The notes beneath the pieces were generated by a model. It did not search any database. It saw nothing but the letters and a program-made list of their open reading frames with translations, and had not been told where the DNA came from. The position numbers and the translations under genes are program-made. Below are positions 4,959 to 62,938 of a stretch of DNA of 64,000 bases, in pieces. Source of the stretch: Polytrichum commune (taxonomy: Eukaryota; Streptophyta; Polytrichopsida; Polytrichales; Polytrichaceae). The DNA is taken from NCBI GenBank assembly GCA_950295325.1, contig OX485803.1:15438001-15502000 (forward strand), given 5' to 3'. The first letter of the stretch is position 1. Every line of letters begins with the position of its first letter.

Positions 4959-7900
4959 CTAATATATTTGTCGGCCATCACCTTCTGTAATAATCTCCTT
5001 GAAACTTGCCCCTCCAGGAATCATGGGTAGCACATGTTCCTATTTTTCAATAAATAAGAAACCACTCGTCAGCCAACTGCATCAGCATATTATAAAAACT
5101 GTCTTCATTCCTATAAGTTGAGATGGACATCTGTTTATTGGCGGTGTGGTTACAACAACAATTACGATAACAACAACAGTAGTATTTGCAATCCTAGGAA
5201 GAGGGTTTAGGGTTAAGGGTAAATAAAAACCTGATGAGGAACAATAACATCGAGTAGGTAGGGCCCTTCTGTATCAAGCATTGTCTGAATAGCAGCCTTC
5301 AAGTCTTCTTTCCGAGTCACACGTGCTGAGGGTACCTGTTTTCCCAGACGAAAACAGTAGGTGTCACATAAAAGAACCCACCATGAACAAATGAGGATAG
5401 TGTGTAAACTAAGATCCATTTCTCTGAACTGCATCTGATGCTTTTGGCACAAAAATCATGGAAAGCTGGAAAAAAATTATATGCATTATACCTCCAACTG
5501 AGAAGAGAATTAAGTGATCATTCCAAGTACCTTGAAGCCCTCAGCAACTTTGCAGAAATCTGGGTAAATTTCCGCTTCTGACTCTGGGTCTCCCAAATAG
5601 GTGTGAGCACGGTTTGCCTTATAAAACCTGTCTTCCCATTGCACCACCATGCCTAGATGTTGATTGTTCAACACCATAATCTTGACTGGCAGCTTCTCCA
5701 CATGTATGGTAGCCAATTCCTACAAATAAAACCAATGTGAGGATCAACATCAATGAGATAGTACATGTTCACATAAGATCTAACATAAGGTGAAATCAAC
5801 AAGTCTAACCAAGAATTCCCTTCAATTAGGCCTTTGAGGGTCTATAGTAAATGCCCAGTCAAGCCAGACCAGCTTGTTACTATAAAGTGAATACACCCAT
5901 TTTGATTACTAATCTGGATTTTGACATCTACATTTGATGTATGGATCATGCATTTGAGCACAAAATATGGTCATTTAGGATGGTGTTCTTGGACAAAAAT
6001 CACAGAAAAATTAGCTCAAATGCAGATCAATAAACCACTCATCACCATCTAGAGCTGCTTTTGTGTAATGACCATTCAGTGTTATTGAGCATCTTGACTT
6101 TCATTGATCATGTCTAAAGCACAGGATATCCATAGTTCAAAGACTCAATTGTATTGCCCTCCTCATGTATTTGCTAGTCAACGAACAATTAGTTTGTTGA
6201 CACCAATATAACAGCAGCAAGTCTTTCAAGTGTCCATTATATCTATTCCTACATGACATAAATAATTCAAATATTTTAATTAGAAGAAGATGCATAATGT
6301 TAAGAAGCCACTAGAATAGACTCCTGAATCGACTGAAATGTTTAAAACATAAACCTGAACATGCTTCCACCCCAATACACTACCTTCTTGAACATTCAGC
6401 AAAATATTAAATAATGCCATACAATTCCAATGTAAGAACCCCACAAAATCTATGGCCTCAGTCACCTGAATATTCATGACAAAGCTTCCATCTCCATCAA
6501 TGTCAACAACAGGGATATTTGGTCGTGTAGCTGCTGCACCAAGGGCAGCTGGCAAACCGAATCCCATAGCACCAAGCCCTGAATGATACAGAAATAATGT
6601 TGGTCAGGTAAGAAAATCAAATGGATGGAACTCTGCTGATAGATTTGGATGCCAAAAGTTTCAACTATAACTATCTTGAAGCCATGTGGAACTTTACCTC
6701 CTGATGTAAGCCACCGCCGTGGTTCCTCGTATCCAAACCACTGAGCAGCCCACATTTGGTGCTGCCCAACACCTGTGGATATGATTGCATTACCTCCAGT
6801 CAACTCATGCAAAACCTGGATTGCATGCTGTGGGACAATGACGTTGTTTTCAAGTTTGGGAAATTTCATTGGCCACTTCAATTTTTGCATATCTAGCTCT
6901 GCTCGCCATTCTGAGAAGTCAAAACTTTCTGCTGAACCCTGTGACCACATTATCCACACATTATGACATCAACAAAGAGCTCAAGCAATCACCACATAAG
7001 CTTTGTTAACAGAGACTGAGCAAATTTGAATTAAAAAGCTCTCGTGTCTATAAGGATATGATTGTTTACAACAGGAACATTTTCAGCTGATTCATGCAGA
7101 GTCTTTGACCATGTTGAATTTCTCAATTGGAACATCCAAAGAGGATGATCATGAAGAAACTCAAATAAAATATTTAAATCAGCAGTTTGGTTGTTACTTA
7201 GCACTCATATCCTCTGGAATTGAATACAAGGACAATGTGGCATGGAGACCTGTAAAACCAAGAGAGATAAATACACTTCTCTACACAAAAATAGGTACGG
7301 ACCAGTGAAGTTAGTACCTTCAACTGATCTCCAAATCATATGATGAAAACTCTAATGTAAGCATCAAAATTTCTCAACAACTGCTCCTTTAAAAAAAGAT
7401 CAAGAGAACAAAGCTTACTCAATCCAAAAATGACATAAGTTGACAGGGTAAATGAATACTAGCATTACCTCTTTTAATAACTCGTTGAGTGCAGCAAGAG
7501 ATAGCTTCAAATCTGCACATAGGGACACATGAGGCTGCTTGTTCTTTCCAATTTCAGCAGGATCGATATCAATATGAACAATGCTGGCTCTTGAGGCGAA
7601 GGACTCCAACTTCCCCGTCACTCGATCATCAAACCGTACTCCAAATGCTAGTAAAACGTCTGCTTGGTCAATGGCGTAATTTGCATAAACAGTCCCGTGC
7701 ATACCCAACATTGACAAGTATCGATCATCTGAAGCAGGGAACGTTCCCAGACCCATTAAAGTTGATGTCACAGGTATACCAGTGAGATCTACGAATTCTC
7801 TAAGCTCCTTGCTAGCATGTAAACATCCACCTCCACAGTAAACCACAGGCTTCTTAGCACTCCCTAATATACGAATAATCTGTTCAAGTAGAGAGATTTG

Positions 7901-9705
7901 AGGAGGACAGGGCAGTCGCTTCAGATATGACTGTAGCTTCATTCCTTGACTCCAGTCTGGGATAGCAAGCTGTTGTTGGATGTCTTTTGGAATATCGACA
8001 AGAACTGGACCAGGTCGGCCAGAAGAAGCCAGGAAAAATGCCTCTCGAATAACTCGTGGGATATCATCTACATTCATCACCAAATAATTGTGTTTGGTAA
8101 TGGATCGAGTCACCTGCACATGGTAACAGGCGTACACAGTGAGCTGTTTGTAAAGACCAATATTCTAGTCACTAGGATGCCAGAACTCCCCAACGTAAGC
8201 TCAGCAACAAACTGTGCCACATAGTCGACAACGACACCTTGTTTTTTCATTCAGCCTTCCTGAAGGTCAGTCAGGACGCCCGACACATTGGTAGTGAGGA
8301 GGCTTAGGTGATCAGTGACTAACACACTTAATCAGCAGTACGAACTTAAAAGATCAAACAAAGTAGGAGAAAACTGCTCAACGAATGTGTCAAGGCAAGA
8401 ACACCAAAATGAACATCCCACCATTTCACCCCATAAAACAAAAGAAACAAAGCCCAATTGAGTGACAACACCATTCTAAATGCACAATTCTTCCAGAGAG
8501 CAAGAAGTTGGTTTACTAAACCCACGCCACGCACACAATGCTAATTAGAATACCACGCTCTGTGACATAATTTCTTATGAAGCATTTGCACCCAAAACAG
8601 CACATGTGTGAACGGAATGAAGGTCTTCATCCCTTAGTGACCATGCAACACCCCAATACCAGCTCTAAGTTCGTCACACATCTTAAAAGTGATATTAGAC
8701 TACCATATTCTGGAAAACGTAAGAACACATTTGTAGCGTCTCATGCTTCTCTGGCCTTCGCAACATAAGGTTGAAAATGGTCACAGTGCGAGCAAAAGAA
8801 ACACAGTGAAAAATGTAAGAATGCTTGCATATGGTGCTCAATTGTCGATGGCTAAGCTGAAGAATGCTGCCCAAAAGCCTTGTCCGGATGTAGGAAACTA
8901 TCAGAAGAAACGTGCCTGCGGAAACCAGCAACCAAATGTGCTAACTTTCTCAGAGTATGCCATACCTCCACAACATTGGTGAACAGTTCTAAGAGTGAGC
9001 TGTACGTACCTCCACAATTGGTGTTTCTTGAAAGGCGTCAGTGCCGATAAACCTACGTGGCACCTGGCCAGTGATAGCAACAAGAGGCACGCTGTCCAAG
9101 AGCGCATCCGCCAATCCAGTGACGAGATTGGTAGCTCCCGGCCCCGACGTGGCGATGCAAACCCCCACGCGCCCGGATGACTTAGCGTATCCCTCCGCGG
9201 CAAAAATCTCACCTTGCTCATGTCTACACAGCACATTCCTTATGGTCTCAGACCTTGTCAAAGCCTGGTGAATCTCCATGGACGCACCGCCCGGGTAGGC
9301 AAATGTGACATCCACGCCCTCCCGCTCCAACGCCTCAACCAAAATGTCGGAGCCCTTTCGAGGCTCATCGTCCTTATACCGTGAGGTGAAACCTTGAGGA
9401 ATGGGCGCACTTATGTTACTACTGCTACTCGACCCAATGAAATCAGGTAAAGGCACATTATTCTGCTCCCTAACCGCCACGGCGGTCTGCTCCCCCGCTC
9501 TTGCATCAGCACAGACCACACGACCACCACACCTTCGTCCATCTCTCTTCCCGAAATTTTCCACCCTCCCTAACCCTAGCTGGCGTGGCTTCAAAGCCCT
9601 CGCAATCACTTCATGCGAATTAGCCGTCTTGTCACCACCACTCTTCAGAGCGCCGCCCGCTAAAATTTGCACAGCGGCGCCCGCTCTGCAGCACGCCTGC
9701 GCCAT
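4959..9705 (-). CDS. ALS: Acetolactate (acetohydroxyacid) synthase catalytic subunit, plastid
   Basis: ThDP- and FAD-dependent enzyme of the first common step of valine, leucine and isoleucine synthesis in plastids; target of sulfonylurea and imidazolinone herbicides. Coding exons on the minus strand: 9705-9010, 8113-7469, 6938-6698, 6578-6466, 5719-5531, 5335-5231, 5039-4959. All junctions are GT-AG and keep frame, giving 689 aa (Arabidopsis 670). Residues 1 to about 85 look like a transit peptide. Catalytic Glu163 lies in RHEQGE; the ThDP motif GDGSF...LNNQ spans exons 4-5. Herbicide-site residues at a constant +19 offset to Arabidopsis are Ala141, Pro216, Ala224, Asp395 and Trp593, all wild type; the Ser653 equivalent is Gly672. 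The first ATG of the long GC-rich exon was taken as start. Intact and probably functional. Confidence 0.97.
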
Positions 9706-9732
9706 GCTTTGTCGCCCTCCCTGTCCACACCA

Positions 9733-10370
9733 CAGCCGCTCATCACAATCCTGCTATGGATGAAAACCGAGAACTAGGACCAAACCTTATATAACGCAAA
9801 ATTCAGGCCCTGACTATGAACGGCGACATTTCATCCACGAAGGCTCACATCACATGCCTGCTCTTGATGAAGCCGAGAAATACGACCAGACCTCACATAA
9901 TCGACACAAAAGAGGGCAAATTCTAAACTCTGACTATGTGTGGTGACATTACAGCGCGCTGAACCTTGGAACGACATCCACAGAGGATCTTATCACAATC
10001 CTGCTCTTCATGAAACTGAGGAATAGGACCAAATCCTCACATAACGCAAAATTTGAGCTCTGACCAAGTACGGCAACACTGCAACGCCCTGAGCCTTACA
10101 AATGACATCCACGGAGGCTCTCATCACATACCTGCTCTTGATGTAGAGAAATAGGACCAGACCTCACATAGCCGACAGAAAAGAGCACAAAATTTGAGCT
10201 CTGACTATGTGGGGCGACATTGCAACAACCTGAAATTCTAAAATGAGATCCACAGAGGCTTCCGTCCCCAATCCTACTCTTGGCAAAACCGAGGAACAGG
10301 ACAAGACCTCAATAAATAGAGACAGAGGACTTCAATTTTGAGCTGTGACAAGACACTGCGACATTACAGC
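9733..10370 (-). repeat. Tandem repeat, about 140 bp unit, in the ALS leader intron
   Basis: About 4.5 diverged copies of a 130-144 bp unit. Anchor motifs ATCCACRGAGGCT start near 9833, 9977, 10107 and 10248; each unit also has AGGACCARACCTCACATAA- and GACTATG-like blocks. The array lies just upstream of the ALS start codon and within the presumed 5' leader intron. Its proximal unit contains the likely 3' splice acceptor (minus strand, after 9754 or 9751), and the matching CAGG-like sequence recurs in the other units near 9857, 10001, 10131 and 10272. Confidence 0.75.
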
Positions 10371-43500: not shown

Positions 43501-43737
43501 GAATGTAATGTACCTATTCCACATCCAATGTTGTTAATTTTTACTACAAGAAATACACTCCATTAGTGTTGCTTTCAACAAAATTGTTTGATAGTAGTAT
43601 ACATAATATATTCGTAAAGTTGACATTGATCAACTTGCCTTCAATGCATCATTCAAGTTAAATGTACCTTCATTATTAGTGTTCATCCACCGAGGTGAAT
43701 TTAAGCATGTTCTCTTTATGTTGATCATGAATGTCCA
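40560..43737. other. Upstream region of the PPR gene, then gene-free DNA
   Basis: 40560 to about 41200 should contain the PPR leader and promoter; a possible donor on the minus strand is CAAGT|GTAAGT near 40917-40922. From 41200 to 43737 no gene is recognised. The plus-strand frame 41066-41437 (123 aa, basic) lacks known motifs. Minus-strand frames at 42449-42198 and 43240-42953 are likewise unassigned. Confidence 0.4.
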
Positions 43738-44172
43738 AGAAGAAGAAGAAGAAGAAGAGCTCCGGTCTCCGGAGGAGGCCAGAGTGAATAGAGTGTTTGT
43801 TCGTAGAACATCCTAGGCCATGCCGCGGGCAATGGCATTAGATGTCAAACTACTTCACCCTTTGCAAGGAGTAGACACTATATTTAGTAATTTATAACCG
43901 CTACTAGTAACCGGTAGCATGGCACCACTCTAGGGGCCAAGGTATAGCGGGTTGCAGGTTTATTTGTTTAATTATGTTAAGTTCTGGAGATTTGTGATGG
44001 ATTGTTGGTTCTTTAGTCTTCGTTTATGAACTAGTATTGAGTGTACATATTGTGTGGCGATTATGTTAATTTGTTTAAATGTACTCATGATTTTCATGAT
44101 AGGGAGCTTAAGCATTGATTCTAAGCTTTTCATTGATGGGATGTGTGTTGTGGCCCTTGCTCTTGCGGCTAA

Positions 44173-46466: not shown

Positions 46467-47096
46467 TGTCTTGATATTTTAATCGATAAAATGAGTTTAC
46501 GTATTTCCCATACAACTTTATTGTGTCTCTTTGTTATAAGTGCATGGATGTGTTTTTGTTTGCATTTAAGTAGTACATGTAGCCATGTATTTGCATTTGA
46601 TGAGTTGCAGATAGGCATGTTTTTGATGGGTAGGCTTCTATGCTGAAGAAAAGTTGCTTTTTGGCATGACCCATATATTGTTCGGTTCGGAATTTTACTA
46701 GGCATGTTTTTTGTTTATCCGTGATGGTGGGGTTTGCCCAAAAGTCGTTTGATAGTACTTTGGCAATGTCATCGTTCTTGAGCCATTTGTATAGTTGGTG
46801 TGTTTGATTTGCTATGATTGTTAGGTTGTGTCTTGTGTCATATTTAACGATGTGTTTTCAGAGGTATCTAATGGAACCCTTGTCTAGTGTCTCTTGCATG
46901 GAGTGCCATCAGTCTTTTTGGAAGTAGTATGGTGTGGGGGTGTGCATGTTCGTATGATGTTGCGGCGCCTTTGTGGTCTAGTTCACGTCCATGTTTGGCT
47001 AATGCCTCTACTTGTTCGTTGCCGTTGATGTTTGTATGAGCTTTTATTTTGTGGAGTGTGGTGATGTGGGTGCGGGATATTATCATTTTAGTCATA

Positions 47097-48456
47097 AAGT
47101 CTAACCTTGTTAATACGACACTCGTTTATAGGACAACCTCAATATTACGACACATTTTTGCGTGACCAAACTTTTTAGTTCAAAACTCCTTCTTTTATAC
47201 AACTACGACACTTGTTAATACGACATTTAGAAACTCCGTTTTGTAATATTAAAGAGGGAATTAATGCTAAAATTCCTTTCATCCATGTTATGTACATCTA
47301 GAATTCATCCATTTATACTTGGGAACTACTTAAGAACTTCACATATTATTGGGAATTTAATGAGAATTAGGGTTACTAATGTAGAATGGACTTGGTTAGG
47401 GTATCTAAAATCGAAAGGTGATTGTGATTTTGGATAATGCATCTTCACATGTTGTTAGCTCTGCCAAAGTTGGTAAGTCTCGTGGTTTTTCAACCTTGGA
47501 ATTGAGCAACATGACTTTGGTATTCCTTCCTCCCAATGTTACAAGCGTAGTTCAACCTTTGGATCAAGGTATAATAGCATCTTTCAAAATTCAATACAAG
47601 AAGAAACTTTTATGGTGGATTTTGTCACAATATGATGATGTTGCATTGAAGGACTGAAAGAAGGTGGTGCCCAACATCAAACATGTTATCATGGGGAGTT
47701 GTGAAGTATGGAGTGATTGGATGCACAAATAGTTAGGAATTGTAGGAGGATGGCACGTATATTACTTGTAACATGGAATGTTGACTTTGCCCTAGTTGAT
47801 GAAAGGGGGAAGAATAAAATGCAAGAGAATTAGATGAACTTGGTGCTATGATTTCAAAGTTGCGATTGGGTGATGATGAGATGTCAATCGAGACTTACAT
47901 TCACATGGAAGGGGAAGAGATTACTGAGCTAGAATTGAGTACTAATGAGTTTTGGTGGATGTTACTTTGAGAATCAATTATGCACAATGCTTTGATCTTA
48001 ATGTTGATATGCATTCAGTAGATGTGGATGATGTTGCTCCACCTACAATATAGCATAGTGATGCTAAACATCACGCATCATTGTTGTCTAATTTCTTATT
48101 AATCAACTCTTTACATTTTGTTGTTAATGAAATTATTAGTTTTCAAAAGCTAGTAGGGAATTTAGATAAGATGATAGTTGCTAATTTAGATAGGCAACAC
48201 CGGAAATGTTTGAACTCTTATTTCAAGAGTTCTTGAGAGTATTTGTATTTGTTTGGAGTTATGAGTTATTATCTCATACAATCTATATTGCTTAAACTTG
48301 TTGTATATGTCTTTAAGCTCATATTGCTTATGTTTTTGTATTCCCTCGATAGCACGACAATTTTATGCCATTTGTCATATTAACAAGAAGACGACACCCC
48401 GATAATACGACATTTTTTGCGTTTCCCAAATGTGTCATACTAAAGAGGGAGAACAA
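47097..48456 (+). mobile_element. Pogo/Tigger-like element, internally deleted
   Basis: 1360 bp with TA duplicated at 47095-47096 and 48457-48458. Ends AAGTCTAACCTTGTTAATAC and the complement of TTGTTCTCCCTCTTTAGTAT pair imperfectly over 25 bp. Several TAATACGACA-type motifs near both ends (47120, 47150, 47207, 47218, 48403) look like transposase binding sites. The frame 47418-47657 encodes the DDE_1 segment: LDNASSH and FLPPNVTSVVQPLDQGIIASFK, with the second catalytic Asp and the Asp of LDQG. The N-terminal HTH/CENP-B domains and the first Asp are missing, so it is non-autonomous. Removing it restores the LINE RNase H frame exactly. Confidence 0.88.
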
Positions 48457-60228: not shown

Positions 60229-60241
60229 AGAATACGAAACA

Positions 60242-60285
60242 AGAAGAAGAAGAAGAAGAAGAAGAAGAACTCCGGTCTCCGGAGA
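60242..60285 (-). mobile_element. 44 bp tail-only LINE insertion
   Basis: A perfect 13 bp direct repeat AGAATACGAAACA at 60229-60241 and 60286-60298 flanks 44 bp made only of (GAA)9 and the CTCCGGTCTCCGGAG hairpin. On the minus strand this is exactly the 3' terminus of the LINE at 43738 (hairpin, then TTC repeats). It is read as an extremely 5'-truncated target-primed insertion. Confidence 0.8.
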
Positions 60286-60298
60286 AGAATACGAAACA

Positions 60299-62188
60299 CA
60301 CAATTATTGCAAGATGATCAATGATTCCAAATCATGATCGTAGCCATTTTCTTCATAAATTTTGGGAACTTAAATGAAGATCTTGTTCTTTGGTCTTTGT
60401 TTTTGAGCGCACACTTAACCACACATTCTTAACCACACATTAGTCAAAATACAAGTTTTGCTTTAATTCCGCCCACTTGAGTTTTTGGTTCTCAACTCCA
60501 ATATGAGACTTACAAATGCCAATATTTGTCATTTGTAGTTGCTAACCATATGAGATATTAATTCAATAGGCAATCCAACAGACAAAATGGATTGTGGAGT
60601 TGAAAGTATCCACAATAGGGTCACATAAGGGATGTGAACCTGACCCAATCACTTCTCTTGATTGGTCACCTATATTTGAGTGGTGTGTGGTTAATGTGGA
60701 TCTAAGAATGGGCACCAAAAAGACACGTGTTTCACAGAGATTGGACTACGTCCTCATAATTTGATAACCATTGTAGGCTAATTAATCAACATTGTTGGGG
60801 GAGCTTTATGATCGTTACTAAGAAAGATAACCTTCATTGTGACAACGAATGAGTCATCCATATGAGTGTGAGGATAATAGCTATGGTCACATTTTGGCTG
60901 TGCAAATCAATATCTTGCACTAATTGTGCGTTTCATATCCCACGAGAAGTGGGTGCATTGTTACAAGTGTATGTTTTAATGACCGCTAACCTTACCTCAC
61001 TCGCATTCTGATCCATAAGATGTTCCAGGTTGCAATGCGAGCAAGAATTCATGAAGGATTCTGGAATCAGCTGATATTACGTCATTCATGATCATCCACA
61101 AGGGCAAGATGTTTGAATTTGGAAATGGTTTTGAATGATGGAATGTTGTTTTGATCACCTGCATGTTATTATTGATGCGGTTTCATGGTGTGTGTGATTT
61201 CCAACTTCGGATGATTGGAAAAATGTGGTTTGGGATAATGTTGTGTGAGTTCACAATTTACAAATGAAGGCAGGAGGGCAGCCCAATTTGAATGTGAATG
61301 CAACTTCAGACATCAATGGATGCGTATTATCACGCTCCACCATTGCTGTTACTTGGAACTTCTTGGAACTCTTATCTTCTGCAACAAACACTTGAACTCC
61401 TGCCTTCTGATCCTGGTTCAACCTTGGCGAGGCGAAATGAAAACGGAGCCTCGTCACCTCAGATTCCTCTTACATTCCGCCTACCGAACATGACCGACTC
61501 AAATCGTTGCTTAGTCACCACAAACATCGCGAAGAAAAACTTCCAAGAATCAAGAATGAACAAAAACGGGCAACTAAGCAAACTCCTCCAACCTTGAATA
61601 CTAAACTCAAGCCAAGACCTATTGATGCATTCCAAATACAACCTAAAATCTAACGATGGTCAAGTAAATACCTTTTGAATACCAACCCAAATCTAGTATA
61701 ATCAATCCAAACCCTTGAATACTAATTTGGAAAACCTAAAGTATGAAATAAATGGAGGCTTTGCATTCGAAACTCGAGTCGGCCATGTTAGATTGAAAGA
61801 ACCCTAACCATTTCCGATCAAATCACAATACTATGAGGAGGCAGCACCATCTTCATACTTGAAATTGAGAAGAATGAGAGAAGAAAGGAGCATCATGAGC
61901 CATGGTGTCCGAGGGCCGGTGGAGAGCGGAAGGGCAGGAAGGAGGGCTTGGAGCAAGAGCTATAACTGAATTCGTGCGGTTGCACAAGCATAGGAGAGAG
62001 GGGGCGAAGAAAGAGGAGAGAGGGCTTAAATGAAGAATGTTTTTGTTCAGTGAAAAAACATAGCTAACTCCTTCATAACATTATTCAGTTGCTATCATCC
62101 ATTCCATTCTAATAATATCAATGACACTGCTTCACCCGAGTTTATCATGCTGAATATGCTTTGATGAGAGAATAAACTCAATATAATT
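60299..62188. other. Gene-free stretch
   Basis: 60310-60720 is one of the better preserved copies of an unclassified dispersed repeat (TATTTGAGTGGTGTGTGG at 60670-60690). At 61250-61630 opposite-strand frames of 60-99 aa overlap; none shows a family signature. No gene assigned. Confidence 0.4.
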
Positions 62189-62204
62189 CCCGAATACTCT
62201 TTGA

Positions 62205-62938
62205 AGAAGAAGAAGAAGAACTCCGGTCTCTCAGGGGAGGCCGGAGTGAATAGAGTGTCTGTTCGTAAGACATCCTTGGCCATACCCCAGGGTAATGGTT
62301 TTGGATGTAATACTACTTCACCCTTTGCAGGGAGTAGACACTATTTGAGTAACTAGTAGTTTTTTTACCAGTTAGCCGGTAATCATGGACTAGGGAGGGG
62401 GGGGGGGGTGAGTGTGTTGGGTGTGGGATGTATTTTTATATATTGTGTTGAAGGTCGGTGATGGGTTGTTTATTTTCTATTCTCCTTTTATGGATTAGTA
62501 TTGAGTGTGCATATTGTGTGGCGATTATGTTAATTTGTCTAAATGTGTTCTTGATTTGTGATGTAGGGAGTTTAAGTTTTGTCTCCAATTCTGCCATTGA
62601 AGGGATATATGTTGTGGCTCTGGCACCTGATGCTAGTACTATAAGTAGGGCTACGTTCCATCCTTTTTCTTTGATGTTGTTGATGAGTGGTTGATATTTA
62701 TTGATTTTTCTTTCTAGTGATTTTGTGGAGAACCTATCGTTACAGTATGTGAATTCTATGAATTGGACTGTAAGTTCCGGTGTGGGTGCGTCTAGTGGTG
62801 GGGACTTATATGGATGTCCTAGTATACATAATATGTCGGGTTTGAGCCTAGCGTTGCAGTGACATCTTTGGGTGTTACATGTGCATGGAAGTAACCATGA
62901 TGGTACTATGTTTTTCTTGGGGGAGCTCATTATATGTA
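62205..62938 (-). mobile_element. 5'-truncated LINE with intact endonuclease frame and 15 bp TSD
   Basis: 734 bp on the minus strand between perfect 15 bp repeats CCGAATACTCTTTGA (62190-62204 and 62939-62953). It codes from the truncation point to 62436: SWLLPCTCNTQRCHC, RLKPDILCILG, TVQFIEFTYCNDRF, KINKYQPLI and GARATTYIP. These are Cys/His residues, a KPD motif, a later Glu and K..KY, the layout of the restriction-like endonuclease of site-specific-type LINEs. There is no internal stop, unlike the copies at 43738 and 45040. The 3' UTR holds a G/C run (62398-62410) and ends in the CTCCGG hairpin region and (TTC)n. The frame continues upstream into flanking DNA by chance. Confidence 0.88.

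Follow-up and report, generated by a model that had tools for sequence, protein, structure and literature searches.

The stretch of Polytrichum commune DNA analysed here (the window, 64,000 nucleotides) contains, at positions 60242–60285, a 44-bp insertion that is a copy of the 3' end common to a LINE family and its SINE partner. The insertion is read as an extremely 5'-truncated product of target-primed reverse transcription (TPRT), in which the reverse transcriptase halted at the border between the loop and the 5' arm of the terminal hairpin and the joining left a target site duplication (TSD) and one extra base. We give this reading a probability of about 85%. Other insertions of the same family end at the same point of the hairpin, and scars of this kind may mark the places at which copying is prone to end.

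Structure of the insertion at 60242–60285

The 44 bp are flanked on both sides by a perfect 13-bp repeat, AGAATACGAAACA. Along 60229–60298 of the plus strand, the order is the first TSD copy (60229–60241, the sequence found as a single copy at the empty sites described below), A(GAA)9, the 15-mer CTCCGGTCTCCGGAG, a single A and the second TSD copy (60286–60298). The element itself lies on the minus strand. Read in its own sense, it begins with the hairpin loop CTCCG (60280–60284), which is the 5' end of the templated part, followed by the 3' arm of the family hairpin, GAGACCGGAG (60270–60279, assigned by family comparison), and a (UUC)n tail (60242–60269, A(GAA)9 on the plus strand). The single extra base at the 5' junction (60285) is a T in the element sense, while most family copies have a C. 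The 5' arm of the hairpin is absent from the insert, as comparison with the elements at 43760 and 62221 and with 140 genome copies shows. A preliminary description of this DNA had reported a 44-bp insertion with a perfect 13-bp TSD, and direct re-reading of both repeat copies and of the length agrees with it. The tail and the 15-mer are also present between the repeats as described, except that the tail is A(GAA)9 and that an extra A (60285) precedes the second TSD copy.

Exact matches of the 15-mer in the window are confined to 43760 and 60270. With up to three mismatches allowed, there are four matches (both places, both strands), against 0.30 expected in the window. The majority of the exact 13-bp direct repeats spaced 20–200 bp apart in the window are inside tandem arrays, and the AGAATACGAAACA pair is among a handful outside them, as judged by eye. 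Folded alone, the 44-nt insert is no better than its own shuffles (z 0.20).

Empty sites

The right flank of the insertion, 60286–60391 (plus strand), is a dispersed genomic repeat, whose other copies provide empty sites. A search with the sequence from 60286 onwards gave 414 candidate places, of which 40 were scored and ten fetched. All ten fetched relatives lack 57 bp, namely the 44-bp insert and the second copy of the TSD; they also have no GAA run and no 15-mer there, and one target copy is present in nine of the ten by loose text match, L155 being too diverged. Both flanks are clearly matched only in L149 and L152; in L150 the match covers about 20 nt. The left flanks of the remaining fetched relatives are unrelated, so that the right flank alone is tested there. 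The empty sites mark the 44 bp, together with one TSD copy, as derived. The comparison with an empty allele, proposed in the preliminary description for a related accession, was thus made with related places in the same genome, and ten out of ten are without the insert. The matches listed for the repeat at 60286–60391 mostly begin within about 20 bases of 60286.

The LINE family

In the 408-Mb genome, the 15-mer has 108 exact matches, against two for the reversed control. One hundred of the 108 were listed and all of these were fetched; TTC follows the 15-mer directly in 92 of the 100, and most of the others have T-rich tails. A search with the 10-nt 3' arm joined to (TTC)3 gave 213 genome matches, against none for the reversed sequence; 100 of these were listed, about 42 of them new (by eye), and 40 were fetched. 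The family sample therefore consists of 140 fetched copies, 100 from the 15-mer search and 40 from the arm search, and in 132 of the 140 TTC follows the 3' arm directly.

These counts also bear on an origin by slippage, in which a pre-existing GAA run would have expanded and the hairpin and the repeat would be there by chance. GAA runs mutate easily and the right flank is itself repetitive, as such an origin would need. Against it stand the excess of the 15-mer over its reversed control, the TTC directly after it in 92 of 100 fetched places, the duplicated 13 bp, which are target sequence, and the ten relatives, in which the site has no GAA run and no 15-mer. We consider slippage extremely improbable, and it was rejected on the evidence of the empty sites.

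Three long copies (L015, L019 and L025) have more than 3.3 kb of common upstream sequence, with 88–89% identity. In the window, the 3' end of a longer LINE is located at 43736–43784 (minus strand), where (GAA)6-GAG is followed, as read on the plus strand, by the 25-nt hairpin CTCCGGTCTC-CGGAG-GAGGCCAGAG (43760–43784). Upstream, this LINE has homology to other copies (L011). It had been described as ending at 43738 with the same hairpin and tail as the insertion; the 15-mer is indeed an exact match, but GAG separates (GAA)6 from it. A search for its TSD found no exact common word of at least 10 nt downstream within the window. Upstream of its tail, an RNase H remnant (46871–47125, minus strand; PF00075, E 0.0036, below the Pfam cut-off) belongs either to this LINE or to a nested one. 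A third family member, L112, absent from the preliminary description, is located at 62203–62246 (minus strand) and consists of (GAA)6 and the hairpin CTCCGGTCTC-TCAGGG-GAGGCCGGAG, the loop of which is unable to form the 15-mer mini-hairpin discussed below.

Among the long copies, L015 contains a clear RNase H (E 2.8e-8). RVT_1 is found in P0018 and an APE endonuclease (PF03372) in P0344, which are database relatives and not fetched copies from this genome. In a phmmer comparison of the reverse transcriptase of P0018 with the PDB, R2 scores 4.5e-20 and L1 4.6e-6, values that express similarity and not a tree. Because the reverse transcriptase and the APE-type endonuclease are seen only in database relatives, we infer, rather than observe, that the retrotransposition machinery would be the LINE's own. 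A Pfam match labelled PCIF1_WW (E about 5e-9) is located in the LINE reading frame, upstream of the RNase H, in L015 (5695–7062) and L025 (5649–6773). The same label is attached to about 80 of 114 database relatives (counted by eye), and a literature search on it returned nothing on topic.

Target site duplications

A TSD score of at least 11 is reached by 40 of the 140 copies, against three of 279 swapped-flank nulls. Among 45 curated copies, the duplications have a median length of 12 bp, start with T in 40 cases and are never directly preceded by C. Hairpin–tail pairs without TSDs, which the preliminary description had set against a retrotransposed origin, do occur next to this excess over the null: the scan over 145 nt gave no TSD of score 8 for 78 of the 140 copies. 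The element runs past -120 in 54 of the 78, while 24 are short and yet without one. Family matches, TSD scan and empty sites together support the earlier view that the insertion is the 3' end of a LINE, retrotransposed and flanked by a TSD.

The terminal hairpin

About 25 nt long, the family hairpin consists in the majority of LINE copies of the 5' arm CTCCGGCCTC, the loop and the 3' arm GAGACCGGAG, followed by (TTC)n. Most LINE copies contain a C-A mismatch in the stem. The loop varies among copies in sequence and length, with the stem kept, and in SINE copies both strands of the inner helix are altered, with CCCTT/AAGGG in place of CTC/GAG. Covariation was analysed with 21 hand-chosen variants and 500 shuffles. 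For the 25-nt hairpin, 84.4% of the cells are paired and 17 two-sided changes are present, a number reached by none of the 500 shuffles; this result may be inflated by kinship, and the LINE rows were chosen by their 3' arm, the SINE rows not. Three pairs show a two-sided change, a number that 183 of the 500 shuffles reach. A copy found via its tail and not via the hairpin (L017:8992) forms a stem of 11 perfect base pairs whose sequence differs. The 25-nt 3' hairpin is real, supported by compensatory changes; it may be the recognition structure for the LINE protein, a predicted role.

Some copies with an altered 5' arm fold better as a mini-hairpin of the 15-mer alone. With no two-sided changes and all 500 shuffles at least as good, this mini-hairpin was rejected as the conserved structure, as it lacks compensatory change.

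Copying had been described as stopping right after the hairpin. The insert contains only the loop and the 3' arm of the approximately 25-nt hairpin and, therefore, copying stopped inside it. In L037 and L071, seven bases from the end of the 3' arm (ACCGGAG) are duplicated ahead of the TTC tail, which would fit a slip as copying began. L111 has about 35 nt of its 3' end duplicated internally, the pattern expected of a template jump.

A SINE with the same 3' end

A SINE of about 350 bp (L087, 136–498), which we take to be tRNA-like from box A and box B motifs recognised by eye, has its 3' end in common with the LINE and its own 12-bp TSD at -335. A search with L087 gave 1655 candidates, of which 40 were scored, and 20 further SINE 3' ends were read. 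All 20 have T-rich tails other than pure TTC, with TTTA, TTTC or TCTA runs. The copies L087 and L100 contain the same hairpin with the loop CTCCG, again followed by T-rich tails that are not TTC. Because the 20 SINE ends carry other T-rich tails, (UUC)n is not fixed, and the suggestion that it is part of the recognition unit does not hold in that form. At least two SINE groups are present, 97–98% and 86–89% identical to L087, and their inner stems and tails differ.

The insert could itself stem from a tRNA-derived SINE, with the LINE enzyme acting in trans, and the hairpin with loop CTCCG shared by L087 and L100 fits such a source. However, its tail is pure TTC, as in the LINE copies, and differs from those of the 20 SINE ends and of L087 and L100, which makes a SINE source very unlikely in our view.

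Truncation points

The 5' ends of 48 curated copies with TSDs were placed by hand relative to the 3' arm. The sample holds copies with at least 10 nt of the arm, and ends inside the arm or the tail fall outside it. Rows of score 8 were dropped (L087, L047, L036, L032, L050, L069, L101, L027, L043, L109 and L139), and so were L072 and L091, in which the element continues upstream of the repeat, and L111, with its internal duplication. L136, L120, L114 and L093 were retained despite a score of 8, or were placed by an alternative TSD scan. Hand placement is ambiguous where TSD and element have common bases; L021 may end anywhere from -18 to about -32.

Six of the 48 copies end at -5 to -7, the border between loop and 5' arm: L010, L012 (the insert at 60242–60285), L058, L079, L134 and L136. 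The probability of this cluster is 0.00065 under a uniform and 0.00025 under a jittered null; minus the insert at 60242–60285, five of 47 remain (p 0.006). The best 3-nt window anywhere reaches six in 9% of uniform simulations, and the significance therefore depends on the insert having singled out this position in advance. Two further copies, L020 and L068, end at the same border without a TSD. No ends at -4 to -1, in the loop, were found among the 40 loci of the arm set, where such ends could have appeared, L134 being set at the loop border by its TSD. Separate insertions thus end at the same point of the hairpin, in small numbers. Three loop sequences are present among the six: CTCCG in four, CCTAGA in L134 and CTTCG in L136, the latter with a TSD of only 8 bp and 6 nt of filler.

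The loop sequences bear on a snap-back of the new cDNA, in which CTCCGGTCTCCGGAG would fold on itself once the loop had been copied and so leave the template. The self-complementary loop CTCCG of four of the six boundary copies would allow this, but L134 and L136 stop at the same place without full self-complementarity. Their stops weaken snap-back as a general cause, and we judge it unlikely.

Further upstream, 13 of the 48 ends are located at -67 to -74, the 5' base of a second predicted hairpin (a post hoc observation), and L031, L114, L116 and L131 end in or beside the loop of that hairpin. These ends can be weighed against a different origin, in which the RNA template was cut in a single-stranded loop and the enzyme ran off a fragment starting inside the hairpin. 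The six ends bordering the loop in the terminal hairpin and the four near the second loop agree with a cut template, but cleavage in loops does not predict the 13 ends that coincide with the base of the second hairpin or lie slightly 5' of it. We hold a cut template to be rather unlikely.

None of the 48 curated ends is located between -24 and -44 (largest-gap p 0.006 uniform, 0.055 jittered). This gap is weak, because family homology begins inside it in five copies that lack a TSD (L024, L099, L100, L104 and L110) and because of the ambiguous placement of L021.

Proposed mechanism

In the preferred reading, that of the truncated TPRT retrocopy, the LINE would nick the target and the (UUC)n tail of its RNA would be copied first. 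The reverse transcriptase would then copy the 3' arm and the loop of the terminal hairpin, presumably in this direction, and would halt at the border between the loop and the 5' arm. Second-strand joining would leave the 13-bp TSD and the one extra base. Why copying halted there is not self-evident, because an unwound hairpin should not block an enzyme that has passed the loop. The likeliest cause would be that the 5' arm is held, either in the bound recognition hairpin or by re-pairing, and that the template thus blocks. RNA cleavage within the loop would leave the same trace as a held arm. We tentatively extend the proposal, with more doubt than belief, to the hairpin being a weak point at which the 5' arm is held, with aborted scars of 40–60 bp as a main source of GAA/TTC microsatellites in the genome. 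If this is true, the positions at which the scars end would report, in vivo, on the grip of the LINE protein on its RNA.

GAA/TTC arrays as scars

In the 238,870 bp examined, four of the five (TTC)5 or longer arrays that had not been fetched for their own sake are family tails; three of these four are in the window and one is the insert at 60242–60285. For arrays of (TTC)3 or longer in the same DNA, the proportion is 4/19. Retrotransposition can thus seed GAA/TTC microsatellites and, on the count of the longer arrays in these 239 kb, the earlier proposal that some GAA microsatellites are retrotransposition scars is borne out.

Comparison with known LINEs and SINEs

Copies of human L1 and other LINEs that are truncated at the 5' end have a TSD, keep their 3' end and show extra or common bases at the 5' joint. 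Here, in contrast, truncation leaves as little as 15–16 nt besides the tail, and does so repeatedly at a single structural point. A literature search, with subscription papers mostly outside its reach, found no stops inside a tail hairpin. The end points of truncated copies in the genome may offer an assay-free map of the places at which reverse transcription of a structured LINE tail ends prematurely. RandI/Dualen LINEs combine a restriction-like endonuclease, an APE endonuclease and an RNase H; of these, APE and RNase H are seen in relatives of the Polytrichum family. In Chlamydomonas, RandI/Dualen LINEs and their SINEX partners have non-poly(A) tails, ATT and CTTT, according to the accessible part of PMC3747384, and the Polytrichum family resembles them as a LINE/SINE pair of the green lineage with a non-poly(A) tail.

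Stringent LINE/SINE pairs with a 3' stem-loop include UnaL2, ZfL2-1/ZfL2-2 and maize LINE1-1_ZM with ZmSINE2/3, and are described for sorghum too (accessible parts of PMC3747384 and PMC4176376). As in these pairs, the LINE and the SINE in Polytrichum have a common 3' end, a hairpin near it with compensatory changes and a short-repeat or T-rich tail. Differences are also evident: in the ZfL2 elements the loop gives specificity, whereas here the loop varies and the stem is kept, and a TTC unit is not among the tail units that these parts of the two papers describe for stringent pairs (PMC3747384, PMC4176376). The reverse transcriptase of the database relative also differs from stringent pairs in matching R2 better than L1 in the PDB. 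Almost all L1s of flowering plants have a poly(A) tail, as far as the accessible part of PMC3747384 goes, and the present family, with TTC directly after the arm in 132 of 140 copies, departs from the plant L1 clade in this feature. A LINE/SINE pair with a hairpin and a (TTC)n tail is thereby added to the few pairs known in land plants, on the same partial source (PMC3747384).

Other features of the window

Rfam and tRNA scans of the window gave no matches. Acetolactate synthase domains are present in three separate reading frames at 6474–9753 on the minus strand, and their best-scoring named relatives are mostly from angiosperms, with about 66–75% identity.
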